From Saprospiraceae bacterium (GTDB lineage Bacteria; Bacteroidota; Bacteroidia; Chitinophagales; Saprospiraceae), in the NCBI GenBank assembly GCA_020628855.1, contig JAHDEL010000019.1:1-35753 (forward strand): 35,753 nt of DNA, read 5' to 3'. The notes beneath the pieces are model-generated. The model was not told where the DNA came from, ran no database searches, and was given only the letters and a program-made list of their open reading frames with translations. Each line of letters begins with the position of its first letter. The stretch's first letter is position 1. Below are positions 1,251 through 35,753 of the stretch, piece by piece. A program made the translations under genes and the position numbers.

Positions 1251-4200
1251 TGGAGGAACAAGACCAAAGTCAACTGTCATATCTCCATTCTCATCATTAC
1301 CAGCATCTTTACCACCATGTGTTCCTGGCTCATTTGTAGGCTCTTGACCTGGATCAAGTGAAATAACTGGTGAAGTAATTCTTCCGTCAGTAATTCCATC
1401 TCCATCAGTATCAGCTTGACTACCGTTATCATCACCATCTACATTATCATCCGCTGTATTTGTCGGAGTAGATGAAGTAGGTAGAGAAGCTGGCGGGATA
1501 AAGCTTACGTAGTAGTCACCAGGAAGTAAGTTATCAAATAAGTAACTTCCAGTAGCATCAGTTGGAGTAGTTGCAACTAGTGCTCCAGTCGCAGCATCAT
1601 ATAGCTCCATTGTTACTGTCTTCCCTTTTTGACCAATTGTCAATTCATTCGGATCCTGAACACCGTCATTATCATCATCAGAGAATACTGTTGAACCAAT
1701 GCTCATTGTTGGAACAAGACCAAAGTCAACTGTCATATCTCCATTCTCATCATTATTACCATCTTTAGAACCATGAGTTCCTGGCTCATTAGTAGGCTCC
1801 ATTCCTGGATCTAATGAAATTATTGGTGAAGTAATAGGACCATCAGTAAGTCCATCTCCATCAGTATCAGCTTGGATACCGTTATCATCAGAATCTGTAT
1901 TGTCATCATTTGTATTGGTTGTAGTTGATGACACAGGCAATGATGCAGGAGGTGTAAAGCTGATATAGTAATCACCAGGTAATAGATTGTCAAAAATGTA
2001 ACTACCTGTATTATCAGTTGTTGTAGTTGCAACAAGAGCTCCTGTTGCAGCATCATAAAGTTCAAGAACTACTGACTTACCCTTGTCACCAAGTGTAAGT
2101 TCTCCCGGATCTTGAACACCGTTATTATTATCATCAGAGAATACTGTTGAACCAATGCTCATTGTTGGAACAAGACCAAAGTCAACTGTCATATCTCCAT
2201 TCTCATCGTTACCAGCATCTTTACCGCCATTGCTAGCAGGCTCATTTGTTGGCTCCATACCTGGATCTAAAGAAATTACTGGAGAAGTAATTCTTCCGTC
2301 AGTAAGTCCATCTCCATCAGTATCGATTTGAGAACCATTATCATCTCCATCAACATTGTCATCTGCAGTGCTTGTTGGAGTAGATGAAACAGGTAGACTT
2401 GCAGGTGGCATAAAGCTCACATAGTAGTCACCAGGTAGTAAGTTATCAAAGAAATAACTTCCATTTCCATCTGTTTGTGTAGTTGCAACAAGAGTACCAG
2501 TAGCAGCATCATAAAGCTCCATTGTTACTGTTTTACCCTTTGCACCAAGATCATCTTCACCTGGATCTTGTACACCATTATTATTATCATCAGAGAATAC
2601 TGTTGAACCTATACTCATAGTTGGTATTAGACCAAAATCAACAGTCATATCTCCACTGTCATCATCAGCAGCATCTTTGTTACCATTACTTTCAGGCTCG
2701 TTTGTAGGCTCGCCACCTGCAGTAAGTGTAATCACTGGAGAAGAAATCCTTCCATCAGTTACACCATCACCATCAGTATCCATCTGCATACCGTTATCAT
2801 CTCCATCAACATTGTCATCTGCAGTGCTGGTAGGTGTTGATGAAACAGGCAAGCTTGCTGGAGGAATAAAGCTTACGATATAATCACCTGGTAGTAAACC
2901 ATCAAAGAAATAGCTACCGTTATTATCAGTTTGAGTTGTTGCAACTACAATACCTGTATTTGCATCAATCAATTCCATTGTAACTGTTTTTCCTTTAGCA
3001 CCCAAGTCATCTTCACCTGGATCTTGGAAACCGTTATTGTTATCATCAGAGAACACTGTTGATCCAATACTTACAGTTGGAATTAAACCAAAATCAACTG
3101 TCATATCTCCATTGTTATCATCAGCAGCGTCTTGGTTTCCACCTTGGAAGGTTTCACCTGTCGGCTCTTGATCAGGAGATAGGTTGATGATTGGTGAGAC
3201 GATAATTCCGTCAGTGGTTCCGTCACCATCAGTATCTAACTGAGTACCGTTGTCGTCACCATCTGTTCTATCATCTGTATTATTTGTTGGTGTAGAAGAA
3301 GTAGGCAATGATGCTGGAGGCATAAATGAAATTCTATAATCTCCAGGAGCTAAACCTCCAAAGAAATAGTCTCCATTTGCATCAGTTGTTGTTGTTGCTA
3401 CAACTACACCAGTATTTGCATCAATTAAATCTAAAGTAACTGTCTTACCTTTTTGGCCAATTCCAAGTTCACCTGGATCTTGAATACCGTTGTCGTTATC
3501 ATCCGAGAAAATAGTCGAACCGATAGACATTTGGCAATCTTGACCTGTGATAGTTACTTCATCAGTTGCAATACAACCATTATTTCTCACTTCTACAGTG
3601 TATGTAATACTAGCAACACCTACTGGCAAATTCACCTGTGGGTTTGATATCGTAGTAGAAGAAAGATATGTAGCAGGACTCCATGTAATGTCTCCACCAT
3701 TAGGAGCAACAAAAGCAGGAGTACCACCTATTTCTGTGTTAGTAGCTTGACAGATTGTTTGATCAGGACCTGCATTAGCAGTTACTGGTCCACCAATTAT
3801 GATGTCCCAAGTATCTGTACTCTCACAACCTAAGTTTCCTGACTCTGCTACTAAAGTAACAGTTACTGTTGTTCCTTCTGCACTAGCAGGGAAAGAAACA
3901 ACTTCAGTACAATCATCAGCGTCTCCATCAGCTGTAGTACCAGGTCCGAAGTCCCAGAGGTAAGTAGCTGTAGGATCACATGTAGGAATTGAGAAAGTAT
4001 ATCCTTGGTTACCGTCAGCTAGACAAACCAAAGTAGGACCATCAATACCTAAAACTGGAGCATTTTCTGCACCAACTGTAACTGTATCTTGACCTGCACA
4101 ACCATTCTCATCAGTAATCACAAGTATGTAATCAGTTTCAACGATAGGACAAACATTAATTTCAAGAGTATTGAAATCTGGATCGTTATCAACTGTATTA

Positions 4201-7079
4201 ACATACCAGTCAAAATTGACATTTCCTGAAGTGTTTGAATATTGAGCGGTGATATCGATACACGAACCTCTACAAATATTAACATCAGGAGATGCTGTTA
4301 CTTGAACATCACAACCAAAAAATCCAAAGTCTAAACTGTGATCAGTTTGTCCAGGAATTCCTGTTGTTACACTAATCATTGGCTTATTCTGAGCAGGACC
4401 AGGAACACCTAGTGCTACAATAGTACCATCACTATCAATAAGGTCATCTCCACCTTGATTAGCTAATGTAATTTCATAATTGATTCCATTATAACTTAAG
4501 AATCCATCATTTGGAGTCGGAGTCGCAGGATCATCAATAGTATAATCATCAACAACTACATAATACTGAGTATTAGGCTCTAGATTTTGGAAGTAGTAAT
4601 ATCCATCTGCGTCTGTTGTAGTCGTCTGAGTACCACTTGGTCCTATTAACAACATAGTAACTCCAGCAACTGGCGTTTCACCTGGATCTTGGATACCATT
4701 TTTATTAGCATCAATCCAAACATAATCACCAATCTCAAGAGGTGCAGGATCACAAAGTACTTCAATATCTCCTAGACCATTCGCCTTACCAAATCCTTCC
4801 GGAGCACCTACGATATCTTGGAAAATCTCATAACCTTCAAAACTACTACCACTATAGGCATTAAATCTTGAGAATCCTTGAGAATATGCTCTTAATGGGT
4901 CATATACTGTAGAAAGAATCTCTCCAGAACCAGCAAATTTTGCTAAGGCACCAGTTGCACCTTCTGCGTGACAAAGTTTCTCATCACAGAAAAATTCACC
5001 ACCGCCAGGTCCTTCATTGTTACCAGGTGCACATCCTACATCCGCGGGAACTGGTCCTCCAACTGGACTCATACCGTTGTTTTCTAGTAAGTATGTTCCA
5101 TCTCCTGCTGGCCATAATTTCAAAATATCACCAGCTGCAAGACCAGAAACTAAAGTAGCCTGAGTTGGCTGGTAGTTTCTGAATCCCATTTGATCTGCAT
5201 ATCTATCTCTTACACCAACGATCATAGTCCCATCGACCTCAAAGTCAATATCTGCAATAATTGGCTGTGGATAGATTGAGCCTTGATAGACATCTGTCCA
5301 GCAATGCCAAGAATCACCAGGTCCTCCTGGTGCTTGTCCACAACCAAACGCAGACTCTCTTGTATAAGTAAAAGGAATATTCACAATAGGCTGAGGATTG
5401 AAACCTACACCAGGAAGGTATTCATAAATATATCCAACTGGAGGGCCTGCTTGGTCAGATTGACAGCTACAAGTACCTCCTGCGTAAACTTTTCCACCAT
5501 AATACTTTAATCCAAAAGGTCGCCAATCGTCACCACATCCTGGATTAGGAATTGGAATAATTGCAGTTAAAGTCGGATTCGCTCCTCCAACTCCTACTTG
5601 GACTAATGTTTTATTAAACATATCAACTACATAGAGAGTTTGTCCATCATCAGAAATATCTATATCACCCATTCCCACTTTACCAACTTTATCAAATGCA
5701 TCAGCATCAAAACTTGGTGACCCAGCATCAGCCGGAAGGTCTCTATCCAATACTTCACCTAGGTTAATTCCAAAGTCATTTACAAGGTCAACATATAGAG
5801 ATGGCGCCCCTGCAGGCTTTGAAGAATAATCAAGTGTATAAATTGCACCAATCCCATCTGGTCCTAATCCAACATGTCTCTTTATATAAGCACTTGTAAA
5901 AACTCTTTTGTCATATCTGTCATAAGCAACACCATATAAGGATCCAACCTGAGCACCAACTGCATCATGATTAGGAATAGAATATCCTGCTCCTCCTGGA
6001 AATCCTGAATTTTGATAGTTAGTTGAAACAAGAGCATCTCTCATACCAGCAGTTCCACCTAATAATGGATCACCATTAATATAACATGGTACAACTACAC
6101 ATGGATCATCTGTGTGACAATAATCCGTTGGATTAGAAATTGCAAGATTTGCGTCACAAGTTGGACCGCAAATAAACCTCACTTCGGTATTATCAACATC
6201 TCCATGTGTTGTTACCTCATACGTTAATAATGAAGTCACAGCTTTATAATTGAATTCTAGCCTGTAACATTCTCCATTTGCAAATGAAACATTTGGAAAT
6301 GAATAAAATCCATCTGCATCGGTAGTCGTAGAAGAAACTAATACACTATTTCCATTTGCATCTGCTCCATAAAGCTCAACTGGAATGCCACCATAAGTTT
6401 GTTGTACTTGGTTATTAATCGCATCATAGTTAAAGTCACCATAAACGAAACCAGCAATACCAGATTGACCAACAACAGGTACAACTGCAACTCCCGTATT
6501 AGTACATCCAGACGTTTGGTCATAGACCGTAACTGTATATGTACCAGCTGGAACTGAGGAAATTCCTGAGCCAGCAACACCATTACTCCATACATACTCT
6601 ACGGCTTGTCCAGTGTTGATTACAACTGAACCATCAGTTCCACCACAAGAGGCAGGTGTAATTGTAAAATGGCTCTGATCCACAAAAGGCGGACGCTCTA
6701 CTGTGATAGTAGCGCAATCTTGTCCTGTGCAACCATCTGTGTAAATGACACTAACACAAACTTGTTGGTCAATGCTAAATACTGGGTTGTTTGGATCAAA
6801 AGGAGGAAGAGTACCATTAAAAATAGTAAAATAGCTGTTCGACCCTGTATTCCAAGAATAGTCTGTTAGTGGATCGACAGTATCTTCACCATCTTCGACA
6901 GTCAAATAAATTGACTCTCCTTCACAAATAATTGTACCATCAGCCGGAAAGTCGTTACCTTGACTGATGACAATGTCACATTGGCCATTCATATTAAGAC
7001 TAAATAAAAAACATGCCAAGAAAGTTAGCAAGCTTCCTGATTTAGCCATCATTCTCATGGCGGTTGAATTAAAACTCAT
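1..7079 (-). CDS. Giant secreted SdrD_B-repeat surface protein, C-terminus beyond window
   Basis: The frame is open from an ATG at 7079 to the window edge (2359 codons plus two bases), so the C-terminus is missing. Residues 1 to about 33 form a signal peptide (hydrophobic LLTFLACFLFSL, likely cut after NGQ). Then come an Ig-like region, an SdrD_B-like domain near residue 205 (IAGFVYGDFNYD), a stretch at about 320-760 that reads like a lactonase/NHL-type beta-propeller (DISDDGQTLYVVD), an SdrD_B domain near 785 (IGDYVWIDANKNGIQDPGE) and PKD/Ig-like domains to about 1183. Two tandem SdrD_B-type arrays follow, at 1184-1943 and from 1944 to the edge. SdrD_B domains are Ca-binding Cna-B-like beta-sandwiches that build rigid stalks on surface proteins. 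I infer an extracellular adhesin or matrix protein and expect a T9SS sorting domain outside the window. Another ATG at 7058 would keep the signal peptide. No substrate can be assigned. Confidence 0.9.
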   Translation of the reverse strand, partial: MSFNSTAMRMMAKSGSLLTFLACFLFSLNMNGQCDIVISQGNDFPADGTIICEGESIYLTVEDGEDTVDPLTDYSWNTGSNSYFTIFNGTLPPFDPNNPVFSIDQQVCVSVIYTDGCTGQDCATITVERPPFVDQSHFTITPASCGGTDGSVVINTGQAVEYVWSNGVAGSGISSVPAGTYTVTVYDQTSGCTNTGVAVVPVVGQSGIAGFVYGDFNYDAINNQVQQTYGGIPVELYGADANGNSVLVSSTTTDADGFYSFPNVSFANGECYRLEFNYKAVTSLLTYEVTTHGDVDNTEVRFICGPTCDANLAISNPTDYCHTDDPCVVVPCYINGDPLLGGTAGMRDALVSTNYQNSGFPGGAGYSIPNHDAVGAQVGSLYGVAYDRYDKRVFTSAYIKRHVGLGPDGIGAIYTLDYSSKPAGAPSLYVDLVNDFGINLGEVLDRDLPADAGSPSFDADAFDKVGKVGMGDIDISDDGQTLYVVDMFNKTLVQVGVGGANPTLTAIIPIPNPGCGDDWRPFGLKYYGGKVYAGGTCSCQSDQAGPPVGYIYEYLPGVGFNPQPIVNIPFTYTRESAFGCGQAPGGPGDSWHCWTDVYQGSIYPQPIIADIDFEVDGTMIVGVRDRYADQMGFRNYQPTQATLVSGLAAGDILKLWPAGDGTYLLENNGMSPVGGPVPADVGCAPGNNEGPGGGEFFCDEKLCHAEGATGALAKFAGSGEILSTVYDPLRAYSQGFSRFNAYSGSSFEGYEIFQDIVGAPEGFGKANGLGDIEVLCDPAPLEIGDYVWIDANKNGIQDPGETPVAGVTMLLIGPSGTQTTTTDADGYYYFQNLEPNTQYYVVVDDYTIDDPATPTPNDGFLSYNGINYEITLANQGGDDLIDSDGTIVALGVPGPAQNKPMISVTTGIPGQTDHSLDFGFFGCDVQVTASPDVNICRGSCIDITAQYSNTSGNVNFDWYVNTVDNDPDFNTLEINVCPIVETDYILVITDENGCAGQDTVTVGAENAPVLGIDGPTLVCLADGNQGYTFSIPTCDPTATYLWDFGPGTTADGDADDCTEVVSFPASAEGTTVTVTLVAESGNLGCESTDTWDIIIGGPVTANAGPDQTICQATNTEIGGTPAFVAPNGGDITWSPATYLSSTTISNPQVNLPVGVASITYTVEVRNNGCIATDEVTITGQDCQMSIGSTIFSDDNDNGIQDPGELGIGQKGKTVTLDLIDANTGVVVATTTTDANGDYFFGGLAPGDYRISFMPPASLPTSSTPTNNTDDRTDGDDNGTQLDTDGDGTTDGIIVSPIINLSPDQEPTGETFQGGNQDAADDNNGDMTVDFGLIPTVSIGSTVFSDDNNNGFQDPGEDDLGAKGKTVTMELIDANTGIVVATTQTDNNGSYFFDGLLPGDYIVSFIPPASLPVSSTPTSTADDNVDGDDNGMQMDTDGDGVTDGRISSPVITLTAGGEPTNEPESNGNKDAADDDSGDMTVDFGLIPTMSIGSTVFSDDNNNGVQDPGEDDLGAKGKTVTMELYDAATGTLVATTQTDGNGSYFFDNLLPGDYYVSFMPPASLPVSSTPTSTADDNVDGDDNGSQIDTDGDGLTDGRITSPVISLDPGMEPTNEPASNGGKDAGNDENGDMTVDFGLVPTMSIGSTVFSDDNNNGVQDPGELTLGDKGKSVVLELYDAATGALVATTTTDNTGSYIFDNLLPGDYYISFTPPASLPVSSTTTNTNDDNTDSDDNGIQADTDGDGLTDGPITSPIISLDPGMEPTNEPGTHGSKDGNNDENGDMTVDFGLVPTMSIGSTVFSDDDNDGVQDPNELTIGQKGKTVTMELYDAATGALVATTPTDATGSYLFDNLLPGDYYVSFIPPASLPTSSTPTNTADDNVDGDDNGSQADTDGDGITDGRITSPVISLDPGQEPTNEPGTHGGKDAGNDENGDMTVDFGLVPPCSETGGIVWIDADQDGCFDLGETVLPNYEVTAYECDAAGNPTGTVATQANGQPAQMMTEPDGSYEFCLDPAKTYTFNLTLQGNDSMTSQDVGACTDANDSDADNSGVIPCTPPGGQDNDFGINPPCENTGGIVWLDADKDGCFDNGETVLPGYTVTAFECVNGVPSANPAIDQNTGQPATMQTLPDGSYEFCLEPNKTYTFNLGLQGNDSMTSQDVAACGDANDSDADSNGIIPCTPPGGDDNDFGINPPCEETGGIVWEDADSDGCFDAGESVIPGMTVTAFECVNGVPTNITATDQNTGQPATMQTLPDGSYEFCLDPTKTYTFSLTLGGNETMTNQDSGACSDADDSDADASGVIPCTPPGGTDNDFGIVPPCEELGGTLFMDMNNDGCQDMAAGEMGVSGETVNLWECDAAG
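1251..3530 (-). repeat. Five tandem 456-bp coding repeats (SdrD_B type I)
   Basis: The codon opening the motif M/V-S-I-G-S-T lies at 3530, 3074, 2618, 2162 and 1706, and the homologous boundary to the next repeat type lies at 1250. Every interval is exactly 456 bp (152 codons). Each unit runs from SIGST(V/I)FSDDN, through a GKTV strand, TTTD..G.Y.F and PPASLP(V/T)SS, to an acidic DxDGDG(V/L/I)TDG loop and the exit motif GDMTVDFGL(I/V)PT. Long stretches are identical at DNA level between units, for example about 75 bases around 1675-1751 against 2131-2207. Confidence 0.93.
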
Positions 7080-7413: not shown

Positions 7414-10400
7414 ATGTTTTCTTACTTTGAGATAACTAGGTTGCGCTATGTGCTAAGCTTAGTTGTAACAATTTCCATTATTTCTCCCTTGTTTAGCCAA
7501 CAAGCAGCTTTAGGAGATTTCTTATGGTATGATCTAAACAATGATGGTATACAAGATCCAGGTGAACCACAGCTCAATGGTGTTATTGTCGAAATCTATA
7601 CAGAACTTGTCCCTGGAACTTACACTTTAGTTGGGCAACAAACATCAACTGCAGATGGAACATATTGCTTTACCGAAGACAACACTACATTCATACCTGG
7701 CAACACTTATTACTTAACAATTCCTAATCCAGTCTTAGAGCCTGGTACTGGTAATCCAACAACTGTAACTCTTCAAGATGCAGGTCCTCCAAGTTTTACT
7801 CAAGACTTAGTAGACTCCGATGCATTTATTGCAGGCTTTGGTCCATTCATTGGGCAGCCTACAATTGAGTTTGTCGCCACTGCTGGTTTTGCAGAAGTGA
7901 AATCTTTAGATTTTGGATTCTATACATTATGTGCGGATTTAGAAATAGAAATACCGCCAATCTTTTTTGCTTGCGAAGGCGAACAGATCAATGTTGTTGC
8001 AGATGTCACTGGCGCGACAGGCAATACTCAGTTTGATTGGAGCACTGGAGATGTCACAACTGTGAATGAACTCACAATCACTGCAAGTACTTCACAAGTC
8101 TACTCTGTAACTGTGACCGATGACCTAGGTTGTTCAGCTTCTGCAGAAACCTACTTTGAAGTAGAGCGATGTCCACTAGATCTCTCATTGACAAAGACAG
8201 TAGATTTAATGGATGTACTTCTTCCAGGAGATATTGCTGAATTTACAATATCTGTTTGTAATGAAGGTGAGTCGGTTGTTGATAGTATAGAGGTGTATGA
8301 CTACCTTCCTAATGGTTATATCCTAACAGACCCAGCATGGACAATAATTGCAGCTACTGCAACCCAGGTAACTGCAAATATTGAATTGAGTATTTCTAAT
8401 GGTGGTCTTCCTCCACAAGGTTTAGAGCCTGGATTATGTATAGACATACCACTCCTTGCAGAGATAGACCCATGTGCTGGTGCAGGTAATACTATAAATA
8501 CAGCATTGATAAATTTTGCAAGTGACCTTTACGGCTTTCAAGATGATGTGGATAGTAGTCCTGGTGCGGCCATACTGGATGAAGATGATACCGATGCAAT
8601 AGCAGCCCCTATATTTGACTTAGCCCTAAGAAAAGTAATAACCTCCGGTCCTGGACCACATTGTGTCGGAGATGTGATAACTTTCGATATAGAAGTTATT
8701 AACCAAGCGAGTGCCGTTGCTTCAGATATCACCATTATAGATTATCTGCCTGAAGGATTGACATTCAATGAAGCAGACAATGGTGGATGGACATATGATC
8801 CAGTAGGAGAGATAGCATCTTTCCAAATTCCGGGTAATTTGAATGCGGGAGAATCTATTTTCATTCCAATTAGTCTTGTAGTTGGCTGCGGAACAACAAT
8901 TGATGCTTGGACCAACATTGCAGAAATCTACTCTGCTGAAGATCAATTTGGACAAGATATGTCATTCTTTGATTTAGATAGTCAGTATGATGACATACCA
9001 GACAACGATATTGGTGGTACTCCACTCTCAATGGAAGATGATCATGTTGATGATAATGGCGCAGATAAAGATGGCAACTTCATAACAGATGAAGATGACC
9101 ATGACCCAGCATTAGTTCCAATATTTGATTTGGCCCTCAAAAAAGAAGTAGCTACACCAGGCCCTTACGACTATGGACAAAATGTAACATTTAATATTAC
9201 TGTATGTAATCAAGGTAATATTGTCGCTAGAGATATTGACATTGTTGACTACATACCAGCAGGTTATACATTCCACCCTACTGCAAACAGCCCAATGTGG
9301 TCTCAAATGGGAATGACTGCAAGTACAATGACAATTGGTCAGCTACCACCTGAAGAGTGCACAATAGTACCATTAGTACTGATTGTAAATCAAACAAATG
9401 GTGGTCCGAAAGACTGGACTAACTATGCAGAGATTACAGGCGCATTTGATAATCTTGGAATGGACATGACTAACAACGATATGGATTCTACTCCAGGATC
9501 AAACACTGCTGACGAACAAGCAGTATGTCTTGGCGATCCTGATGATGACAATCTGGATGGCAAAGGTCCAAAGATGGGAGAAGATGAAGATGATCATGAT
9601 CCTGCTGGAATTACGATTATTGACTTAGCATTAAGAAAAAATTTACTTACCGCAGGACCTTATGCTTATGGAGATTTACTCACCTATCAAATAGAGGTAT
9701 TTAACCAAGGTAGCGATACAGTTGCAAGTGTTGGCATTATCGATTATTTCAATGAAGGACTTGCATTGACAAATACAAATTTCCCAATGTGGGAAAATGG
9801 TATTAATCCAAATACTGCGACAACAAAACTTAAAGATTTACCTCCGGGTGAAAGTGAAATCGTTACTATCGAATTCGTCTTGTCAAAGAGCATGGATTTG
9901 ACAGCATGGGACAACTGTGCTGAAGTCTACTACATGGAAGATTCTGATTGGGTGGATCTCTTAGATGAGGATAGCACACCAGATGACATCAATGGTAATG
10001 ATATTGGAGGCAATGTAAACACTCCAGAAGATGACGAAATAAATGACAATGGTGCTGATCTTGATGGTGACGGTGTCACTGATGAAGATGATCATGATTG
10101 CGATAGAATAACTGTCTATGACTTGGCGCTCACGAAAACTACAACAATCACAGGCCCATTCGACTACGGACAAGTTATTCCATTCACAATTACAATTTGC
10201 AATCAAGGTAACGGCATTGTTGACCAGGTCAATGTCCAAGATTATATTCCTCCTGGCTTTGCGATTGTGCCAGATGCAAATTGGACAGCTGCTGGACTAC
10301 ATGTAACAGGTCAAATCATACCTGGACAGTGTATTACAGTACCTCTCGAGATGACTTTAGAACAAGTAGAATGTCCTGAAGAAATCTCTTGGTACAATTA

Positions 10401-13400
10401 TGCGGAAATCATCAGTTATGTTGATGAAGATGGAATTACTCGTACAAGTGATCTAGACAGTGATCATGGCTCGGATACTGGTTATGAGAGATCCGTTCTT
10501 CTGGGTGATGATTTTGATGACGATATTGATGGATGTGGAGCAATTGAAAATGAGGATGAAGATGATCACGATGTGTCAGGTCTTGATATCTATGATCTAG
10601 CTCTCAGAAAAACAAGCAATCAAGTTGGTCCTGCAAAATATGGTGATGTTATTACATTCACAATTGATGTAATCAACCAAGGATCTCAACCGGTTAGAGA
10701 TGTTAGTGTCATTGATTATTTTCCAGATGGATTTACTTTCTTACCAAGTAATGCAGGGGTTTGGTCCTCTGTTTCAAATTCGAATATAGCTAATGCAACC
10801 ATCGACTATATTGAACCATGTGAGACATCAAGTCTTACCATTCAATTGATGGTCAGCAAATCCACTGCTCTCAATGACAATTGGATAAACTATGCCGAAA
10901 TACAATCATTCAAGGATATTGACTTTGTAGATGTTTCTAACCTTGATGTAGATAGCACACCTGATGGTTCTCAATCTAATGATATTGGGGGTACACCTGA
11001 TTCGCCAGAAGATGATCACATTGCTGATAGCGGAGACGATTATGACGGCGATGGCATTACTGATGAAGATGACCATGATCCAGAAAGAATTGCTGTTTAT
11101 GACGTGGCAATGATTAAGACATTAGATACTCCTGCGCCATATACTTATGGACAGACTCTTGACTTCACAGTGACGATCTGCAACCAAGGAAATGAAGATC
11201 TTGACCAAGTAACAATTCAAGACCATATTCCTGCTGGATTATCTCTAGTGGCTGATGCAAATTGGACTGCTGCTGGAGTGCATGTGAGTGGCATAATTCT
11301 TCCAGATGAATGTGTTGATGTCCCTCTACAAATGATTGTGAATCAACTCGAGTGCAGTGATCAAGAGAGTTGGATAAACTATGCTGAAGTCATGAGCTAT
11401 GTTGATGAAGATGGTGTAACTCAGACCATGGATGCAGATTCAATGCATGGATCTGATTCAGAGTATGAAAATGCTGTACAACCAGGTGATCCATTTGATG
11501 ATGATCTCTTTGGCTGTGGTGAAGGTGTATCGGAAGATGAAGATGATCATGATGTTGCAGGTATCGAAGTATTCGACCTAGCATTAAGAAAGACATTAAC
11601 TACTGCTGGACCATTCAAGTTTGGCAATACTGTCACCTTCCAAATTGAGGTATTCAACCAAGGAAGTGAAACAGTGAGGAATGTTGAAATAGTGGACTAT
11701 ATACCAGTAGGAATGTCCTACTTATCAAGTAATGTAATGCCTTGGACTTCTGTATCCAACTCAAATATGGCATCTGCTACAATTGATCAAATCGAGCCTT
11801 GTGAAAGTGCCGTACTAACGCTTGATCTCATGCTAACTAAGAGCGTTGCTGCAGGAGACAATTGGATAAATGAAGCTGAGATTAAATCCTTTATGGATGA
11901 AGACCTGAATGTGGTTTCTGATCTCGACTTTGATAGTACGCCTGATAGTACTCAAGGTAATGACATTGGTGGCAATACCGAAACTTGCGAAGACAATGAA
12001 ATACACGACAATGGTGCGGATCTAGATGGGGATGGATGTACAGATGAAGATGATCATGACCCAGAAAGAATACCTATCTATGATGTGGCGATGATTAAGA
12101 CTTTAGATACTCCTCCACCACATCAATACGGCCAGACTCTTGACTTTACGATTACTATCTGTAATCAAGGTAATGAAGATCTTGACCAAGTGACTATTCA
12201 GGATCATATACCAGCAGGACTTACCCTCATCGCAGATGCGAATTGGACTGCTGCTGGGGTCTATATTTCAGAAATTATAGCACCAGACGATTGTATAGAT
12301 GTACCACTTCAGATGACAATCAATCAGCTTGTCTGTAGTGATCAAGAAAGCTGGATTAACTATGCGGAAGTGGTGAGTTATGTCGACGAAGATGGAGTTA
12401 CTCAAAATATGGATGCTGATTCAATGCATGACTCAGATAATGATTATGAAAATGCAGTACAGCCAGGTGACACGTTTGACGATGATCTCTTTGGCTGTGG
12501 TGAGTCTGAGGGTGAGGATGAAGATGATCATGATGTAGCAGGTATCGAAATCTATGACCTAGCACTAAGGAAGACCAATGTCACAGCTGCACCATACAAG
12601 TATGGAGATGTAGTGACATTCTTTATTGACGTAACGAACCAAGGAAGTGAGACAGTCAGAAATGTTGTAGTAGTAGACTATATAGATGATGGTATGCAAT
12701 TCGCTACTTCGAATACGATGCCTTGGAGCACTATCTCTGGGTCGAATATGGCGTCAGCAACGATTGACGAATTGACACCGTGCCAAACAGTCACTTTACC
12801 TGTACAATTTGTTCTACTCAAGAATACAACTAACGGTGACAATTGGATTAACGAGGCAGAAATCAAGTCGTTCATGAATACAGACTTGGAAGATGTCAGT
12901 TTACTTGATTTTGATAGTACACCAGATGCAATATTAGGTAATGATATTGGAGGAACTCCAGAAACTTGCGAAGATGGAGAGATCAATGATAGTGGGACTG
13001 ATCTAGATGGAGATGGCTGTACGGATGAAGATGATCATGATCCAGAAAGAATACCTATCTATGATGTGGCGATGATTAAGACCTTGGATACTCCAGCTCC
13101 GCATCAATATGGCCAGACTCTAGACTTTACGATTACGATCTGTAATCAGGGTAATGAGATGCTTGATCAGGTGACAATTCAAGATCACATTCCTGCAGGT
13201 TTATCTCTCGTTGCTGATGCAAACTGGACAGCTGGTGGACAGCATGTTACAGGACTCATAGCACCAGATGAGTGTATTGATGTTCCTCTCCAGATGACTA
13301 TTAATCAGCTTGTGTGTAGTGATCAAGAAAGTTGGATAAATTATGCAGAAGTGGTGAGCTACGTCGATGAAGATGGAGTAACTCAAAACATGGATGCTGA

Positions 13401-16400
13401 CTCAATGCATGATAGTAATAATGCCTATGAAAACGCTGTACAGCCAGGCGATGCATTTGATGATGATCTCTTTGGTTGTGGTGAGTCTGAAGGTGAAGAT
13501 GAAGATGATCACGATGTGGCTGGAATAGAAATCTATGACTTAGCATTGAATAAGACGACGACGAGCACAGGACCATACAAGTATGGTGATATTGTGACTT
13601 TCAATATCGAGGTATTTAATCAAGGTAGTGAGACTGTTAAGAACATTCTGATTACTGATTATATTCCTGATGGAATGGCCTTTATGGCATCAAATGCTGC
13701 CACATGGTCTTCTGTTTCTAACTCGAATTTAGCTACAGCTACAATCGAAGAATTGGAGCCTTGCGAAAGTGAAATACTGACTATTGATCTCAGGTTGACA
13801 AAGAGTGTTTTGGCGGGAGATAACTGGATCAATGAAGCTGAGATAACAACGTATACTGATGAGAATTGGAATCCAGTTGCAGATCAAGATTTTGATAGCA
13901 CAATTGATGGCATCCAAGGAAACGATATTGGAGGTACTGCTGAAACTTGTGAAGATGACGAGATTCATGATAATGGTGCTGATTTGGATGGTGATGGTTG
14001 CACTGACGAAGATGATCATGATCCAGAAAGGATTCCTATTAATGATGTGGCACTAATCAAAGAATTGCTTACTCCTGAACCAGCGGGGGGATTCAATTAT
14101 GGTGATGTACTCACTTTCAGAATTACAGTATGCAATCAAGGTAATGAGAGTCTGACTGATATTCTTGTTCAAGATCATTTACCTCCAGGACTTGCTTTTG
14201 TTCCAAATAATGGATGGACTGCAGGTGCCACTTATACCTTTGATATTATCACGCCTGATGACTGTAAGACAGTAAATCTTGATGTTACAATTGTCAAGAC
14301 TGACGGCGGAGAAGAAGACTGGATTAACTATGCTGAAATAGTGAGTTATGTCGATGAAGATGGAGTAACTCAGAACATGGATGCAGACTCAATGCATGAT
14401 AGCAATAATGCTTATGAAAATGCTGTACAACCAGGTGATCCATTTGATGATGATCTCTTCGGTTGTGGAGAGTCTGAAGGCGAAGATGAAGATGACCACG
14501 ATGTGGCAGGCATTGAGATTGTTGACCTTGCCTTAAGGAAGACAACTACTCAAACTGGTCCATTCAAACTTGGAGATGTTGTGTGCTATGATGTTGAAGT
14601 ATTCAACCAAGGTAGCATGAAAGTAACAGAGGCTAGGATTGCTGATTACATTCCAAATGGTCTCAATTACCTTTCTTCAAATTTTCCAACATGGGATACA
14701 GATCCGACTGGATTACTAGCGATTGGAAAGGTGAAAAACCTCATGCCAGGTGATAGTGAAATCATTGAAATATGCCTCGAAGTTGACAAATACTTTGTCG
14801 AAGGAAGTGGTGATACTGCATGGGATAATATTGCTGAGATTTACTACATGGAAGATGACAATTGGAATAATCTGACTGATATAGACAGTCAGCATGATGT
14901 CATTCCAGATAATGATTGTGGTGATGGTGTCCAAACTCCAGATGATAATGAAATTGACGAGTGTGGATGCGAAGCAGATCCAGATGAAGATGAAGATGAT
15001 CATGATCCAGAAAGAATCGAAATCTTCGATTTGGCTCTTATTAAAACTATTGATACGCCAGAGCCATATGCCTACTGTCAGGATATCACATTTACCATTA
15101 CAGTATGTAATCAAGGTAATGAACCAGCGACTCAAATTGGTATCACAGATCATATTCCAGCAGGATATGATTATGACCCAGCGATTAATGGTGCATGGAG
15201 CGGAGCATTCCCTACTATCACTACGACTGTAGCTGGACCGCTAATGCCTTCAGAATGTATTGATATTCCTTTGATTCTTAAGGTCAATAACACTTCTGGT
15301 GGTTATACTGATTGGACAAATTATGCTGAGATTACGAGCGCTGCAAATAGAAATGGTATTGACAGGACAAATTGGGATCTTGATAGTACACCTAACAGCA
15401 ATGCGGCTCACGAATTAGCTATCCAGGCTGGCGATCCAGATGACGACAATCTTGATGGTTGCGGACCAAGCAGAACTGAAGATGAAGATGATCATGACCC
15501 AGCTGGAATTGAAGTATTTGACTTGGCACTAGATAAAAGAATCTTAACTCCAGGCCCTTATGATTGGGGAGATACTGTATGTTATAAGATTACAGTCTAT
15601 AACCAAGGTAATCTAGATGCTAGAAATATCGGATTGATTGATTATCATCCAGTTGGTCTGGAGAATGTCATCAATAACTACCCTACTTGGGATTATGATG
15701 GTACAGATAGAGAGTCTACTCATATGATTATGGGGCCATTAGCTCCTGGTGATAATGTAGATGTTGACATTTGTCTTGAGGTACAGAAGTTGAAAAACGA
15801 TGAAGACGCATGGGATAATAGAGTCGAAATATACTTCGCAAAAGATATCGACTTTATCACGCGTGATGACATTGATAGCAGCCCTGACTTTGTTGTCGGA
15901 AATGACATTGGTGGCCGTCCATGGACATTAGAAGACAATTATATTGATGACGATGGAACGGATTGCGATAATACGAACATTGCACTTTGTCGATTTGATG
16001 AAATAGGTATAGTTGATGAAGATGATGAAGACGTAGCAAGAATCGAAATACCTGACTTAGCATTGAGGAAACGACTATTAACTCCAGCACCTCATCAATA
16101 TGGTGATTTGTTTGAGTTTGATGTTTGTCTTTTCAATCAAGGTAATGAAGATGCGAATAACATTGAAGTAACAGATTACTTGCCTGATGGCTATGTATTT
16201 GATCCGCTTCTCAATCCAGGTTGGAGCGAGCTTGCGAATGGTGATTTACAATACACTTATGCTGGTCCATTGGCGGCTGTCGATAGTGTTTGCATTCCAT
16301 TGTTCCTTGAGTTTGTCTGCACTTTTGGTGGAGAGAAAGATTGGATAAATTATGCTGAAATAACGAATTTTGAAGGACGTGAATGTTCATTCCCTGATGG

Positions 16401-19227
16401 TGGATTCCCTTATGAAAATAGAAATGATTGGGAAATGGATAGCACGCCTGGATCTAACTCTGAATGGGAGCAAAATGTTGAGATACCACTCTACAATGAT
16501 CCACTTGAATTAGCATTCCCATGGGATGATGAAATCTGTGGATGTGGACCTCTATATGATCAAGATGAAGATGATCACGATCCAGCAGGAATTGAAGTCT
16601 ATGACCTAGCAATTCTCAAGGATGAAATCTCTACTGGTCCATACATCTATGGTGACATCGTACAATATGATTTTATTGTTTACAATCAAGGTAGTACTGA
16701 TGCTTTTGAAGTAGAGGTTACTGACTATATACCATGTGGATTAGAGTTTGTTCAGGATGACAGAAACGAAGACTGGATCTTTAGTCCATTCGAGGATCTT
16801 GCTATGACAACAGTCCCTGACTCGATTCTGCCAGGAGATAGTTATATTCAGCCTATATTCTTTAGAGTTGTACCATGCTGTGATGAACCAATTGCAATCA
16901 ATTGGACAAATACTGGCGAGGTCAGTGATGGAGAGACAGAATACCTCTATGATGCTATTGATATTGATAGTACTCCTGATACCATTAATCAGGAGACTAA
17001 TGTTATCGATGATGCATTGAAGGATCCAACGGATGAAGATGATCATGATATTGAAAAAGCTGAAGTATTTGATTTGGCTCTGAGGAAGACAACAACCTAT
17101 GTTGATCTTGAATTAGATGATCCAAATACTTTCACAATCACGGTATTCAACCAAGGTAATATGGTTATCCAAGATGTGACTGTTGTAGACTACCCAAGCA
17201 GTGCTTATCAGTTTACGACATCAATCAATCCGGGTTGGACAACTGGATCAACAGGCTACCTCTATTACACGTTTGAGGATATTTTCCTTCAACCAGGTGA
17301 CAGTATCAAAGTAGATATAAATCTGACACTAGATGCTAGTCTTGTCACACAGCTTGAAGATCAGTATAACTGTGCAGAAATTGTATCATTTACGGATGAG
17401 TTTGGCAATGATCAATCAGCAAACGATGCTGACAGTGTGCCAGATGATAATCCATCAAACGATAATGTGGTGATACCAGGTGATCAAGATGATGATGAGA
17501 TTAAAGAAAATGGACCGAAACTGAATCCATTTGAAGATGAAGATGACAAGGATGTTGCTGATGTACAAGTACTAGGAAAGATTGGAGATTGGGTATGGAT
17601 AGATTGCAATGGTAATGGCATCCAAGATATTGGAGAAATAGGTCTTGAAGGAGTCAGAGTAGATCTTGTTGATGCATGGAATATTGTGATCAGATCTGTC
17701 TACACTGATGCCAATGGAAGATACCTCTTTGAGCTTGTGCCTCCAGGCGATTACTTCGTGAGATTTACTCTACCTAGTGGGTATGAATTTACATTCCCTA
17801 ATGTGGGTACATCTGAGTATCATGATAGTGATGTTGACAATAGCAATGGCCCAGGAACAACTGCTGTAGAAAACATTGCTGGTAGAGAATGTGATCTGGA
17901 ATCATTTGATGCAGGAGTCTACGAGTGCATTGAGATAGGTCAATACGTCTGGTATGACTCTAACGAAAATGATATCCAGGAAGCAACAGAAAATGGAATT
18001 AATGGAGTGAAAGTTGAGCTCTACAGATTAGAGAATGGCAACTTCATTCTTTGGGATTATCTCTTTACTGGACCTGAACCAGGCACTGCAAGTGGAGATG
18101 GTTACTACAAGTTCTGTACTGCTCCAGGTACATACTACCTGAAGTACATTGTATCTGGTTATGGTTTAGTACCTGTAACACCTAACAATGCAAACGATAA
18201 CGAAGATAGCGATGTCACTGGTGCTAATGGTATCAACACCACGAATACAGTTACCGTAGATTGTAATGGTGAGTACTGTAACATTAATGCAGGCTTCCAA
18301 GCTGAAGCAGTACTTGGTAATAGAGTATGGCAAGATGATAACGGTAACGGTATGCAAGATGCACCAGAGCAAGGTATGCAAGGAGTCCAGGTCAGACTGT
18401 ATGACATGAATGGAAGCATGGTTGATCAGGTGAATACGGATAGTGATGGCTACTTCCAATTCGACTTGCTTCCTGCTGGAGATTATTACCTACAGTATAA
18501 CCCAACTGCTGGGTTTGTAGCATCTCCAAGCAACATGGGAGGTGATGACACTATGGATAGTGATATCGATCATTCATACGGTTATAATACTACGAGCATG
18601 ATTACTTTGACTCCAGGCGATAATGAAGAGACATTTGATGCTGGTTTCTACCAATCAACAATCTTATCATTATCTGATGTTTCCCTTGAAGGTAGACATG
18701 ATAATGGTGTCAATTTACTTGCGTTCCAGGTTAATCAAAATGATCTTGTAAAGACATTAGAAATTTACAGAGCTGTAAACAACGATGACTTTAAGATTAT
18801 TGCATCTCTTGACGCTACTGACAATACTTCTGAAGGTTACAATTTTGTTGATGATGAGGTCTCAGCTAATGGTACCTACTACTACAGAATTAATGCTAAT
18901 CTAGAGAATAGTGATGTAGAGTATAGTAATGTTGTCGCAATAGACATTATGACAGATGAGCAAAGTAATCAAGGATCATTCACAATCAGTCCTAACCCTT
19001 CTAATGGTGATGTCTGGATAAGAGGCAAGAATCATATGTTGGATGGCCAGTTTGAGGTGATTGTTGTTAACGCAAATGGACAGAGCATTTACAATAATTT
19101 GATACAGAATGCATCAAATGAAGAGAATTATAGACTTGATCTTACTCACCTTCCTTCAGGAATGTATGAGGTACAGATCTCGTCACAAAATGGCAATGGA
19201 AACTACCGCATTCTAATCATGGATTAA
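7414..19227 (+). CDS. Giant T9SS-exported DUF11-repeat surface protein (3937 aa)
   Basis: It starts at an ATG followed by a clear signal peptide (hydrophobic VLSLVVTISIISPLFS, residues about 13-28). An SdrD_B domain begins at about residue 32 (LGDFLWYDLNNDGIQDPGE), and an Ig/PKD-like domain covers about 172-252. Residues 256 to about 3385 are 19 DUF11-type repeats, each opening with D-(L/V)-A-(L/M)-x-K and carrying (C/F/I)NQG(N/S) and (I)NYAE-like motifs. Three SdrD_B domains follow (about 3388, 3507 and 3629), then an FnIII-like domain with YYYRI, and a C-terminal T9SS type A sorting domain (FTISPNPSNG ... SGMYEVQI). DUF11 repeats are Ig-like stalk modules of bacterial and archaeal surface proteins. 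The protein should cross the outer membrane by T9SS and be anchored or released at the surface. Linkers between repeats are extremely acidic. An adhesive, matrix or filament role is inference. A terminator follows at 19273. Confidence 0.93.
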   Translation: MFSYFEITRLRYVLSLVVTISIISPLFSQQAALGDFLWYDLNNDGIQDPGEPQLNGVIVEIYTELVPGTYTLVGQQTSTADGTYCFTEDNTTFIPGNTYYLTIPNPVLEPGTGNPTTVTLQDAGPPSFTQDLVDSDAFIAGFGPFIGQPTIEFVATAGFAEVKSLDFGFYTLCADLEIEIPPIFFACEGEQINVVADVTGATGNTQFDWSTGDVTTVNELTITASTSQVYSVTVTDDLGCSASAETYFEVERCPLDLSLTKTVDLMDVLLPGDIAEFTISVCNEGESVVDSIEVYDYLPNGYILTDPAWTIIAATATQVTANIELSISNGGLPPQGLEPGLCIDIPLLAEIDPCAGAGNTINTALINFASDLYGFQDDVDSSPGAAILDEDDTDAIAAPIFDLALRKVITSGPGPHCVGDVITFDIEVINQASAVASDITIIDYLPEGLTFNEADNGGWTYDPVGEIASFQIPGNLNAGESIFIPISLVVGCGTTIDAWTNIAEIYSAEDQFGQDMSFFDLDSQYDDIPDNDIGGTPLSMEDDHVDDNGADKDGNFITDEDDHDPALVPIFDLALKKEVATPGPYDYGQNVTFNITVCNQGNIVARDIDIVDYIPAGYTFHPTANSPMWSQMGMTASTMTIGQLPPEECTIVPLVLIVNQTNGGPKDWTNYAEITGAFDNLGMDMTNNDMDSTPGSNTADEQAVCLGDPDDDNLDGKGPKMGEDEDDHDPAGITIIDLALRKNLLTAGPYAYGDLLTYQIEVFNQGSDTVASVGIIDYFNEGLALTNTNFPMWENGINPNTATTKLKDLPPGESEIVTIEFVLSKSMDLTAWDNCAEVYYMEDSDWVDLLDEDSTPDDINGNDIGGNVNTPEDDEINDNGADLDGDGVTDEDDHDCDRITVYDLALTKTTTITGPFDYGQVIPFTITICNQGNGIVDQVNVQDYIPPGFAIVPDANWTAAGLHVTGQIIPGQCITVPLEMTLEQVECPEEISWYNYAEIISYVDEDGITRTSDLDSDHGSDTGYERSVLLGDDFDDDIDGCGAIENEDEDDHDVSGLDIYDLALRKTSNQVGPAKYGDVITFTIDVINQGSQPVRDVSVIDYFPDGFTFLPSNAGVWSSVSNSNIANATIDYIEPCETSSLTIQLMVSKSTALNDNWINYAEIQSFKDIDFVDVSNLDVDSTPDGSQSNDIGGTPDSPEDDHIADSGDDYDGDGITDEDDHDPERIAVYDVAMIKTLDTPAPYTYGQTLDFTVTICNQGNEDLDQVTIQDHIPAGLSLVADANWTAAGVHVSGIILPDECVDVPLQMIVNQLECSDQESWINYAEVMSYVDEDGVTQTMDADSMHGSDSEYENAVQPGDPFDDDLFGCGEGVSEDEDDHDVAGIEVFDLALRKTLTTAGPFKFGNTVTFQIEVFNQGSETVRNVEIVDYIPVGMSYLSSNVMPWTSVSNSNMASATIDQIEPCESAVLTLDLMLTKSVAAGDNWINEAEIKSFMDEDLNVVSDLDFDSTPDSTQGNDIGGNTETCEDNEIHDNGADLDGDGCTDEDDHDPERIPIYDVAMIKTLDTPPPHQYGQTLDFTITICNQGNEDLDQVTIQDHIPAGLTLIADANWTAAGVYISEIIAPDDCIDVPLQMTINQLVCSDQESWINYAEVVSYVDEDGVTQNMDADSMHDSDNDYENAVQPGDTFDDDLFGCGESEGEDEDDHDVAGIEIYDLALRKTNVTAAPYKYGDVVTFFIDVTNQGSETVRNVVVVDYIDDGMQFATSNTMPWSTISGSNMASATIDELTPCQTVTLPVQFVLLKNTTNGDNWINEAEIKSFMNTDLEDVSLLDFDSTPDAILGNDIGGTPETCEDGEINDSGTDLDGDGCTDEDDHDPERIPIYDVAMIKTLDTPAPHQYGQTLDFTITICNQGNEMLDQVTIQDHIPAGLSLVADANWTAGGQHVTGLIAPDECIDVPLQMTINQLVCSDQESWINYAEVVSYVDEDGVTQNMDADSMHDSNNAYENAVQPGDAFDDDLFGCGESEGEDEDDHDVAGIEIYDLALNKTTTSTGPYKYGDIVTFNIEVFNQGSETVKNILITDYIPDGMAFMASNAATWSSVSNSNLATATIEELEPCESEILTIDLRLTKSVLAGDNWINEAEITTYTDENWNPVADQDFDSTIDGIQGNDIGGTAETCEDDEIHDNGADLDGDGCTDEDDHDPERIPINDVALIKELLTPEPAGGFNYGDVLTFRITVCNQGNESLTDILVQDHLPPGLAFVPNNGWTAGATYTFDIITPDDCKTVNLDVTIVKTDGGEEDWINYAEIVSYVDEDGVTQNMDADSMHDSNNAYENAVQPGDPFDDDLFGCGESEGEDEDDHDVAGIEIVDLALRKTTTQTGPFKLGDVVCYDVEVFNQGSMKVTEARIADYIPNGLNYLSSNFPTWDTDPTGLLAIGKVKNLMPGDSEIIEICLEVDKYFVEGSGDTAWDNIAEIYYMEDDNWNNLTDIDSQHDVIPDNDCGDGVQTPDDNEIDECGCEADPDEDEDDHDPERIEIFDLALIKTIDTPEPYAYCQDITFTITVCNQGNEPATQIGITDHIPAGYDYDPAINGAWSGAFPTITTTVAGPLMPSECIDIPLILKVNNTSGGYTDWTNYAEITSAANRNGIDRTNWDLDSTPNSNAAHELAIQAGDPDDDNLDGCGPSRTEDEDDHDPAGIEVFDLALDKRILTPGPYDWGDTVCYKITVYNQGNLDARNIGLIDYHPVGLENVINNYPTWDYDGTDRESTHMIMGPLAPGDNVDVDICLEVQKLKNDEDAWDNRVEIYFAKDIDFITRDDIDSSPDFVVGNDIGGRPWTLEDNYIDDDGTDCDNTNIALCRFDEIGIVDEDDEDVARIEIPDLALRKRLLTPAPHQYGDLFEFDVCLFNQGNEDANNIEVTDYLPDGYVFDPLLNPGWSELANGDLQYTYAGPLAAVDSVCIPLFLEFVCTFGGEKDWINYAEITNFEGRECSFPDGGFPYENRNDWEMDSTPGSNSEWEQNVEIPLYNDPLELAFPWDDEICGCGPLYDQDEDDHDPAGIEVYDLAILKDEISTGPYIYGDIVQYDFIVYNQGSTDAFEVEVTDYIPCGLEFVQDDRNEDWIFSPFEDLAMTTVPDSILPGDSYIQPIFFRVVPCCDEPIAINWTNTGEVSDGETEYLYDAIDIDSTPDTINQETNVIDDALKDPTDEDDHDIEKAEVFDLALRKTTTYVDLELDDPNTFTITVFNQGNMVIQDVTVVDYPSSAYQFTTSINPGWTTGSTGYLYYTFEDIFLQPGDSIKVDINLTLDASLVTQLEDQYNCAEIVSFTDEFGNDQSANDADSVPDDNPSNDNVVIPGDQDDDEIKENGPKLNPFEDEDDKDVADVQVLGKIGDWVWIDCNGNGIQDIGEIGLEGVRVDLVDAWNIVIRSVYTDANGRYLFELVPPGDYFVRFTLPSGYEFTFPNVGTSEYHDSDVDNSNGPGTTAVENIAGRECDLESFDAGVYECIEIGQYVWYDSNENDIQEATENGINGVKVELYRLENGNFILWDYLFTGPEPGTASGDGYYKFCTAPGTYYLKYIVSGYGLVPVTPNNANDNEDSDVTGANGINTTNTVTVDCNGEYCNINAGFQAEAVLGNRVWQDDNGNGMQDAPEQGMQGVQVRLYDMNGSMVDQVNTDSDGYFQFDLLPAGDYYLQYNPTAGFVASPSNMGGDDTMDSDIDHSYGYNTTSMITLTPGDNEETFDAGFYQSTILSLSDVSLEGRHDNGVNLLAFQVNQNDLVKTLEIYRAVNNDDFKIIASLDATDNTSEGYNFVDDEVSANGTYYYRINANLENSDVEYSNVVAIDIMTDEQSNQGSFTISPNPSNGDVWIRGKNHMLDGQFEVIVVNANGQSIYNNLIQNASNEENYRLDLTHLPSGMYEVQISSQNGNGNYRILIMD
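8179..17574 (+). repeat. Array of 19 DUF11-type repeats in two alternating kinds
   Basis: Repeat starts (the D of DLAL-K or a variant) include 8179, 8617, 9127, 9622, 10120, 10594, 11101, 11575, 12082, 12556, 13063, 13537, 14044, 14524, 15028, 16054 and 17071; two more even-numbered repeats lie between the last three. From repeat 3 to about repeat 15, odd repeats carry CNQGN plus a downstream C(V/I)xVPLQM-type motif, while even repeats carry (F/I/T)NQGS. The last repeats blur this rule (YNQGN, FNQGN). Odd repeats exit through DPFDDDLFGCG...EDEDDHDVAG; even repeats exit through NDIGG...D.DGDG.TDEDDHDPERI. Confidence 0.9.
10120..14043 (+). repeat. Four consecutive 981-bp higher-order repeat units
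   Basis: Units start at 10120, 11101, 12082 and 13063, and the next homologous start is 14044, so four successive intervals are exactly 981 bp (327 codons). The internal even-repeat starts (10594, 11575, 12556, 13537) are also 981 bp apart, a fixed 474 + 507 bp split. Neighbouring intervals drift slightly: 993 bp for 9127-10119 and 984 bp for 14044-15027. Copies share long protein stretches such as YAEVVSYVDEDGVTQNMDAD but differ at many third codon positions. Confidence 0.92.
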
Positions 19228-25642: not shown

Positions 25643-25646
25643 TCTC

Positions 25647-35417: not shown

Positions 35418-35753
35418 TTATTCCTCGCATTCGTCAATCGCTTCTTCAAGTTCCTCATCACTATTCAGTTCCTTTATACATCCATCTTCAAACTCAATCG
35501 ATATAGGATACACAAGCTCGGGGTCTTCTTCATCATCTGAACTCTCGTAGTACGCATCCAAGACCTCTTCAAGCTCATCGGCATCTCCAACAGTCTCTTC
35601 ACTACCGTCAGGAAACTCTAGACTTAAAGGAAAGAGAATTTCAAAGCAAAGCTCATCTAGGTCTTCTAAATCATCACAATCGTCATCATCTTCTCCTTCG
35701 TCATCATCTTCTCCTTCGTCATCATCTTCTCCTTCATCGTCATCTTCTCCTTC
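35418..35753 (-). CDS. Highly acidic repeat-containing protein, N-terminus beyond window
   Basis: The minus-strand frame is open from the right edge to a TAA at 35418-35420, giving 111 codons of a C-terminal part. The visible part begins with four EGEDDD-type hexapeptides (the first varies slightly), then CDDLEDLDELC. It ends with two copies of a short motif: FEILFPLSLEFPDGSEE followed by DADELEEVLDAYY, and LVYPISIEFEDGCIKE followed by NSDEELEEAIDECEE. The motif 'FP(V/I)(S/T)(V/I)EF.DG....(V/N)(N/D)S.EELE' recurs in uncharacterised Bacteroidota lipoproteins; that recognition is from memory. Nearly every other residue is Asp or Glu, which would favour cation binding. It has its own terminator. 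Function unknown. Confidence 0.75.
   Translation of the reverse strand, partial: EGEDDDEGEDDDEGEDDDEGEDDDDCDDLEDLDELCFEILFPLSLEFPDGSEETVGDADELEEVLDAYYESSDDEEDPELVYPISIEFEDGCIKELNSDEELEEAIDECEE
35681..35752 (-). repeat. 18-bp tandem coding repeat (EGEDDD)
   Basis: As read on plus, cgtcatcatcttctcctt occurs at 35681-35698, 35699-35716 and 35717-35734 without change, followed by a variant copy at 35735-35752. It encodes EGEDDD on the minus strand and may continue past the window edge. Such perfect short coding repeats change copy number easily without breaking the frame. Confidence 0.92.

Follow-up and report, generated by a model that had tools for sequence, protein, structure and literature searches.

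The DNA considered here, called the window, is the 35,753-nt stretch that runs from position 1 to 35,753 on the forward strand of contig JAHDEL010000019.1, part of the 74-contig draft genome of a Saprospiraceae bacterium (GCA_020628855.1). It carries a giant gene, a single open frame of 3,937 codons, whose product contains 19 tandem DUF11 domains (D1 to D19), and this array is a repeat of two alternating DUF11 subtypes, odd- and even-numbered, from end to end. The features of the gene, which ends in a sorting tail of the type IX secretion system (T9SS), are the following; AF2 denotes AlphaFold2.

7414 to 19227, plus strand: giant gene (3,937 aa) encoding an SdrD_B region at the N-terminus, 19 DUF11 domains, C-terminal SdrD_B domains, and a T9SS sorting tail
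7429 to 7491, plus strand: predicted N-terminal helix (residues 6–26, low-confidence AF2 model), likely a Sec signal
7507 to 7728, plus strand: N-terminal SdrD_B domain (PF17210, 44.9 bits)
8179 to 8616, plus strand: D1, odd; groups with domain 1 of four other arrays
8617 to 9126, plus strand: D2, even
9127 to 9621, plus strand: D3, odd
9622 to 10119, plus strand: D4, even
10120 to 11100, plus strand: 981-bp unit 1, D5 (odd, 474 bp) and D6 (even, 507 bp, from 10594)
11101 to 12081, plus strand: 981-bp unit 2, D7 (474 bp) and D8 (507 bp, from 11575)
12082 to 13062, plus strand: 981-bp unit 3, D9 (474 bp) and D10 (507 bp, from 12556)
13063 to 14043, plus strand: 981-bp unit 4, D11 (474 bp) and D12 (507 bp, from 13537)
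14044 to 15027, plus strand: unit 5, 984 bp, D13 (480 bp, mosaic) and D14 (504 bp, from 14524)
15028 to 15519, plus strand: D15, odd
15520 to 16053, plus strand: D16, even; clusters with the domain fourth from the end in array L041 (support 98) and less surely with its equivalent in L039 and L042
16054 to 16602, plus strand: D17, odd; clusters with the domain third from the end in L039, L041, and L042
16603 to 17070, plus strand: D18, even; clusters with the domain second from the end in L039, L041, and L042
17071 to 17574, plus strand: D19, odd, the final DUF11 domain, of ambiguous tree placement
17575 to 18720 (end approximate), plus strand: C-terminal SdrD_B domains (PF17210), best stretch at residues 3633–3745
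18985 to 19218, plus strand: T9SS type A sorting domain (TIGR04183, 39.3 bits against a cut-off of 23)

The Pfam family DUF11 (PF01345) matches 19 stretches of the protein, and D3 to D12, scored singly, reach 34–55 bits against a gathering score of 24.6; in the search of the window's own genome all 19 domain places exceed the DUF11 cut-off. The domain starts, set by the motif D[LV]A[LMI] with one start and one false match adjusted by hand, coincide with the DUF11 places of that search, and the Pfam stretches together with the domain listing confirm the number of 19 given in an earlier note on this DNA. SdrD_B matches four stretches of the whole protein, Por_Secre_tail also matches the C-terminus (45.1 bits against a cut-off of 27), and the short stretch between the N-terminal SdrD_B domain and the DUF11 array, which has no Pfam match, is read as Ig-like. 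The tandem stalk domains by which fibrillar adhesins are recognized are present in the form of the 19 DUF11 domains and the four SdrD_B stretches.

Two-domain steps counted from 8179 measure 948, 993, 981, 981, 981, 981, 984, 1026, and 1017 bp. The starts at 10120, 11101, 12082, 13063, and 14044 follow one another at exactly 981 bp, as the earlier note had reported, and the drift that it described at the edges is also found (993 bp from 9127 to 10120, 984 bp from 14044 to 15028, then 1026 and 1017 bp). The division into 474 and 507 bp, which had been attributed to five units, occurs in four, while the unit at 14044–15027 is divided into 480 and 504 bp; D13, its odd domain, is a mosaic whose first ~240 bp are 49–57% identical to D11 and whose end and connector reach 88–91% at best. 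At lags 1 to 4 the domains are on average 32, 53, 31, and 50% identical, respectively, and identity between domains of the same parity exceeds that between opposite parities by 13.3 percentage points (z 7.9), a contrast reached by none of 500 shuffles of the domain order. In the maximum-likelihood tree of the 19 domains, 7 of whose 16 inner branches are weak, one branch (support 96/90) separates the ten odd from the nine even domains, and forced grouping of neighbours is rejected by the approximately unbiased test (p-AU 1.5e-07 for D5 with D6, 1.1e-26 for D9 with D10). Because odd and even domains split at one branch, the alternation extends over the whole array, and the span 9127–15027, to which it had been assigned, is too narrow. 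The names CNQGN and FNQGS chosen for the two kinds are loose labels of a true alternation; in the window the Cys of CNQGN (once CNEGE) occurs in eight of the ten odd domains and the literal FNQGS in four of the nine even ones.

A locus scan with one two-domain unit as query, in genome collections holding one genome per species, gave 69 loci from the best 80 of 178 stretches, the majority bearing the title Saprospiraceae, with some Chitinophagales and a small remainder. Fifty-three arrays have seven or more contiguous domains, and none of 500 shuffles reaches the parity contrast in 13 of them (the window, the seven loci L039 to L045, L071, L098, L106, L131, and L135); the same alternation, for which a search of other Saprospiraceae had been suggested, is thus found there. 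This proportion is no frequency estimate since the window's unit was the bait, and many of the 53 arrays lack the parity signal, including L084, L091, and L116, which lies in the window's own genome. In L040 the similarity at lag 4 is higher than at lag 2, so that two pairs make a four-domain unit on a two-domain register; as a separate observation, longer periods also occur in L155 (peak at lag 4) and L143 (peaks at lags 3 and 6).

Four of these arrays, L039 to L042, are orthologous to that of the window by synteny, as each has upstream a homologue of the giant gene that diverges from the array gene in the window:

3 to 7079, minus strand: divergent partner giant, SdrD_B-rich, 2,359 aa, running off the contig; homologues lie divergently beside the array gene in L039 to L042 and L086

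The partner giant has tandem arrays of its own at 117–1272 and 1255–3509, with periods of 375 and 456 bp. The N-terminal 256 residues of the array proteins of L039 to L042 are 40–49% identical to those of the window protein, and L086 has the same gene pair with the array interrupted by the contig end. The distribution of the orthologue is patchy. The N-terminal region (E 1e-22 or better) occurs in 7, the window's own among them, of 398 family genomes, an even draw from a larger group, and in 4 of 112 genera; at the same threshold it was not found in the three other genomes of the window's genus, whose recG proteins are 76, 71, and 69% identical to the window's. In the genomes of L040, L041, and L042 the corresponding values are 59, 56, and 59%, and the recG search gave no match in those of L039 and L086. 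An orthologue beside recG in the sister genomes was considered and rejected: in G001 and G002 the sequence adjoining recG contains no giant, and a small divergent gene, presumably rbfA, lies upstream of recG, the contig of G002 ending shortly beyond, while in G003 a different SdrD_B/DUF11 giant (L137) adjoins recG.

The five complete arrays contain 19 (window), 23 (L039), 19 (L040), 17 (L041), and 27 (L042) DUF11 domains, all odd numbers, and all five are typed as alternating, four of them having one or two terminal domains that are untyped or deviate. In a tree of their 105 domains, odd and even types are separated by one change (SH-aLRT 99), compared with a mean of 35 after shuffling and with none of 500 label shuffles as low; the two clades anticipated by the earlier note are therefore recovered in five genomes as in the window. 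First domains cluster across the five arrays, second domains lie together, in ambiguous order, at the base of the even clade, third- and second-from-last domains cluster across the window, L039, L041, and L042 (100 and 99; L040 excluded), and last domains cluster only for L039, L041, and L042. Central domains, in contrast, cluster by genome in the window, L040, L041, and L042, and identity to the nearest same-type copy climbs from edge to centre in all five arrays (rho 0.90, 0.69, 0.88, 0.93, and 0.52). When the arrays were aligned as strings of domains with odd blocks permitted, one of the ten pairwise comparisons was block-free, eight had a single block of 2, 4, 6, 8, or 10 domains, and L039 and L042 differed in two separate places, each time by a block of exactly two domains. 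Independent support for a two-domain step is given by the odd totals, the separate pairs of L039 and L042, and the tree. Since the ends are mostly positional orthologues and the centres mostly genome-specific, growth from the middle by two-domain units, as the earlier note had proposed, is supported, and among related bacteria the stalk seems to become longer or shorter by two domains at a time.

The two types differ more in their connectors, the acidic segments of about 50 residues that join one domain to the next, than in their beta-sandwiches, a contrast that the earlier note does not mention. With the boundary between core and connector placed at column 142 of the alignment, a connector-only tree separates odd and even in one change; between genomes, same-type connectors are 0.485 identical against 0.325 for opposite types (difference 0.16), compared with 0.390 against 0.333 for cores (difference 0.06). 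Because the subtypes differ more in the connecting segment, two kinds of joint would alternate along the stalk. The pattern D-x-[DN]-x-[DN]-G, which we take to resemble calcium-binding loops, occurs in 28 of 50 even connectors and in 5 of 55 odd ones, and the even joint may bind calcium. In addition, two Cys columns are both filled in 38 of the 105 domains and both empty in 67, with no domain having one alone; as the columns are only filled together, their co-occurrence suggests a disulfide in the domains with the Cys pair. Elsewhere in the window, at 31173–31871 on the minus strand, a DsbA-like thioredoxin-fold protein is encoded that might bear on stalk disulfides.

DUF11 corresponds to CLIPPER, a stalk domain clamped by an intramolecular isopeptide bond that, in the available text of the CLIPPER report, involves Lys 715, Asp 748, and Asn 806 of the structure 9IFR (PMC12617251). 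Lys, Asp, and Asn columns, equated with these residues by order and spacing rather than by superposed coordinates, are invariant in all 105 domains, and in each of the 19 domains of the window an isopeptide bond between Lys and Asn is the probable lock. The AF2 model of D9 to D12 is confident, connectors included (predicted local distance difference test, pLDDT, 90.4; predicted TM-score, pTM, 0.73), and matches the crystal structure 9ifr with Z 10.4 and a root-mean-square deviation of 3.0 over 115 residues; the profile match to 9ifr has E 0.0015. The CnaA-like or Ig-like beta-sandwich fold of 9IFR is therefore found both in the model and in the 9ifr match. However, integrin and macroglobulin domains score about equal to 9ifr against the model, so the fold match is a general one and the family is given by the sequence matches (Pfam, 9ifr). 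A sperm axoneme chain and integrins lead the Foldseek table; query TM-scores in the rows listed are 0.13–0.21, and these matches were read as a common arrangement.

We consider it likely that the stalk is clamped and exported by the T9SS, that its two kinds of joint alternate in an inherited two-domain register, and that whole two-domain units have been gained and lost, mostly mid-array. The gene product would be a fibrillar surface protein, its stalk made of 19 DUF11 (CLIPPER) domains and its role perhaps adhesive or structural. Odd and even domains would be two old subtypes of an ancestral array that already alternated, and lineages would later have gained or lost whole two-domain units, mostly mid-array, with ends mostly fixed, by recombination or slippage between like subtypes. 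Exact runs of at least 25 nt occur in none of 190 odd-lag pairs (lags 1 and 3) and in 26 of 180 even-lag pairs (lags 2 and 4), 16 of which belong to L042. Because unlike subtypes have no long identical run of DNA, the register tends to perpetuate itself, and if exchange requires runs of ~25 nt, as is known for RecA-type recombination, it would be preserved in even steps: like would pair with like and length would change by even numbers of domains, with selection on the joints possibly adding to this. Slippage or gene conversion would leave the same pattern as the unequal crossing-over invoked by the earlier note, and the stalk that it called heterodimeric is misnamed, being one polypeptide with a two-domain repeating unit.

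Several observations weigh against this reading. The central domains of L039 group with those of L042 and not by genome, and the C-terminal end of L040, like the last domain of the window and that of L040, falls apart from its positional counterparts. In nine of the ten comparisons between arrays, those with a single block or none, even sizes are implied by the odd totals and are no extra evidence. The odd totals are weak when taken alone, since a coin toss would give five out of five with a chance of 1 in 16 to 1 in 32 and the arrays, being related, are not all independent. Outside L042 only 10 of 132 even-lag pairs have a run of at least 25 nt, and unlike neighbours in the window share up to 22 nt at their acidic junction, so that the register argument is a matter of degree. 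The core-only tree needs three odd/even changes, and the Cys label, tried as the defining difference, was rejected as a faithful marker because, over the five arrays, 29 of the 55 odd domains have the Cys and so do 9 of the 50 even ones. An adhesive tip was not recognized; Pfam finds only SdrD_B in the N-terminal 255 residues, which were examined without a fold search, and the AF2 model of this region (pLDDT 72.8) is too weak to name a binding domain. Finally, several of the compared assemblies are metagenome drafts, in which repeats are open to mis-assembly.

A possible, though doubtful, alternative is that selection keeps the alternation, the odd connector and the even connector, the latter with its DxDxDG-like acidic loop, having different jobs (for instance one stiff and one calcium-tuned or flexible) and single-domain insertions being made but lost. 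Selection for alternating joints fits the conservation of the connectors, which in 79 of the 95 same-type pairs at lag 2 resemble each other more closely than the cores do, and the skewed distribution of the D-x-[DN]-x-[DN]-G pattern points in the same direction. D9 and D11 are 91% identical in protein and use the same codon at 59% of their shared residues, with 46% expected from the codon usage of the gene and 50% in low-identity pairs; this combination indicates constraint on the protein. L084 and L091, arrays of the same families without parity signal, suggest that expansion by single domains may occur elsewhere. On the other hand, the absence of 25-nt identity from all odd-lag pairs means that a neutral register may explain the even steps, and this rule may be sufficient by itself; moreover, the stronger conservation of odd cores seen in the window is not general, as the most alike pair of L041 is an even one. 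A bolder form of the idea, which appears rather unlikely, is a titin-like rope of clamped domains whose alternating joints would be kept by selection over genus-level divergence, with length changing only by two-domain units and similar registers arising again in L131, L135, and L098. These three arrays alternate strongly, and in one quick LG+G4 tree with many weak forks their subtypes fall outside the odd and even groups of the window, on which ground two-domain registers may have arisen more than once; an independent origin is only suggested.

It is improbable that unequal crossing-over amplified the 981-bp core in recent times, leaving the central copies youngest, as the earlier note had it. 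The equal spacing and the peak of protein identity in the centre are in its favour, as is the orthologue L042, whose central units are of recent date, the same-codon fraction reaching 0.99 and the exact runs as much as 444 nt. In the window, however, the proportion of synonymous differences (pS) between central units is 0.54–0.98, near saturation, the nonsynonymous proportion (pN) is 0.02–0.13 in odd cores and both connectors and 0.20–0.31 in even cores, the even-domain pairs listed share codons at 0.44–0.53 against 0.45–0.46 expected, and exact runs at one-unit spacing reach 41 nt at most. From pS near saturation, low pN, and near-expected codon sharing it follows that the window's units are old, not young, and constrained in protein, and their equal spacing reflects the absence of indels rather than youth. 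Youth of the 981-bp units is thus refuted by synonymous saturation, while the central copies are indeed the most alike, the edges, mostly positional orthologues, being more diverged than the centre. The highly identical DNA repeats typical of periscope proteins are absent from the window; the orthologue L042 has near-identical units. Those of L042 make up its domains 15–23, as two-domain units of ~993 bp each, and the L086 contig, from a genome related to that of L042, appears to end at the corresponding part of the array.

Very improbable is the view that the alternation is the published one of CLIPPER and CLIPPER_2 under a different name, although DUF11 and DUF7507 often alternate in tandem according to the available text of that report (PMC12617251) and six of the ten domains tested (D3 to D12) pass the DUF7507 cut-off of 27 bits, the odd ones averaging slightly higher. 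All ten nevertheless score best as DUF11 and lower as DUF7507 (23–33 bits), and the six above the cut-off include even domains, so that the assignment of every second domain to DUF7507 was rejected. An assembly artefact or chimera of repeats, to which the fragmented draft and the several contigs ending in or near DUF11 arrays might point, is scarcely credible given the uninterrupted 3,937-codon frame, the same register in four other assemblies, and units that, from ~9947 to 13016, are 45–90% identical in 99-nt windows and thus divergent enough for assembly.

The remainder of the window contains, at 24284–27257 on the minus strand, a pair of neighbouring genes for CotH-like kinases, of which one has a T9SS tail, and, at 35680–35753, an 18-bp tandem repeat of 4.1 copies that reaches the window end.

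Syntenic bacterial orthologues make the mid-array growth of multi-domain units visible across genomes, and a simple rule is suggested by which like pairs with like and the register is inherited. The mechanical importance of alternating joints in isopeptide-clamped stalks becomes testable, and equal repeat spacing proves to be no evidence of recent duplication. Mid-array multi-domain duplication, two-domain stalk units, periodic linkers, and DUF11/DUF7507 alternation are already known. Two alternating DUF11 subtypes are not described in the titles and abstract beginnings of the literature matches listed; as far as these show, the new elements are this alternation, its strength in the connectors, and a register kept over several genera.

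Among known systems, titin has longer periods, belongs to eukaryotic muscle and is not known to have isopeptide clamps, whereas the window stalk has period two in a bacterial secreted protein. In SasG/Aap stalks, E and G5 are different domains and the repeats are near-identical; in the window, by contrast, both domains come from one family and the copies are old. The resemblance to SasG/Aap, as far as the available text on the E-G5 stalks goes (PMC9704523), consists in a two-domain unit, a bacterial surface stalk, and a variable number of units. With the A-band super-repeats of titin, as presented in the accessible part of PMC10665226, the window array shares a chain of Ig-like/FnIII type, a multi-domain period, period-specific linkers, mid-array expansion, and deviating end repeats. 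The likeness to DUF11/CLIPPER (PMC12617251, 9IFR) includes the Pfam family, a compatible fold, the Lys, Asp, and Asn columns, and tandem arrays in long surface proteins; the alternation in the consulted portion of that paper is between DUF11 and DUF7507, while in the window two DUF11 subtypes alternate that differ mostly in their connectors. Finally, Bjorklund et al. 2006 (PMC1553488) reported, in the text available, that several domains are duplicated at once, often mid-array, on the basis of similarity inside single proteins of 24 proteomes, whereas here the array lengths and domain positions of syntenic orthologues are compared.

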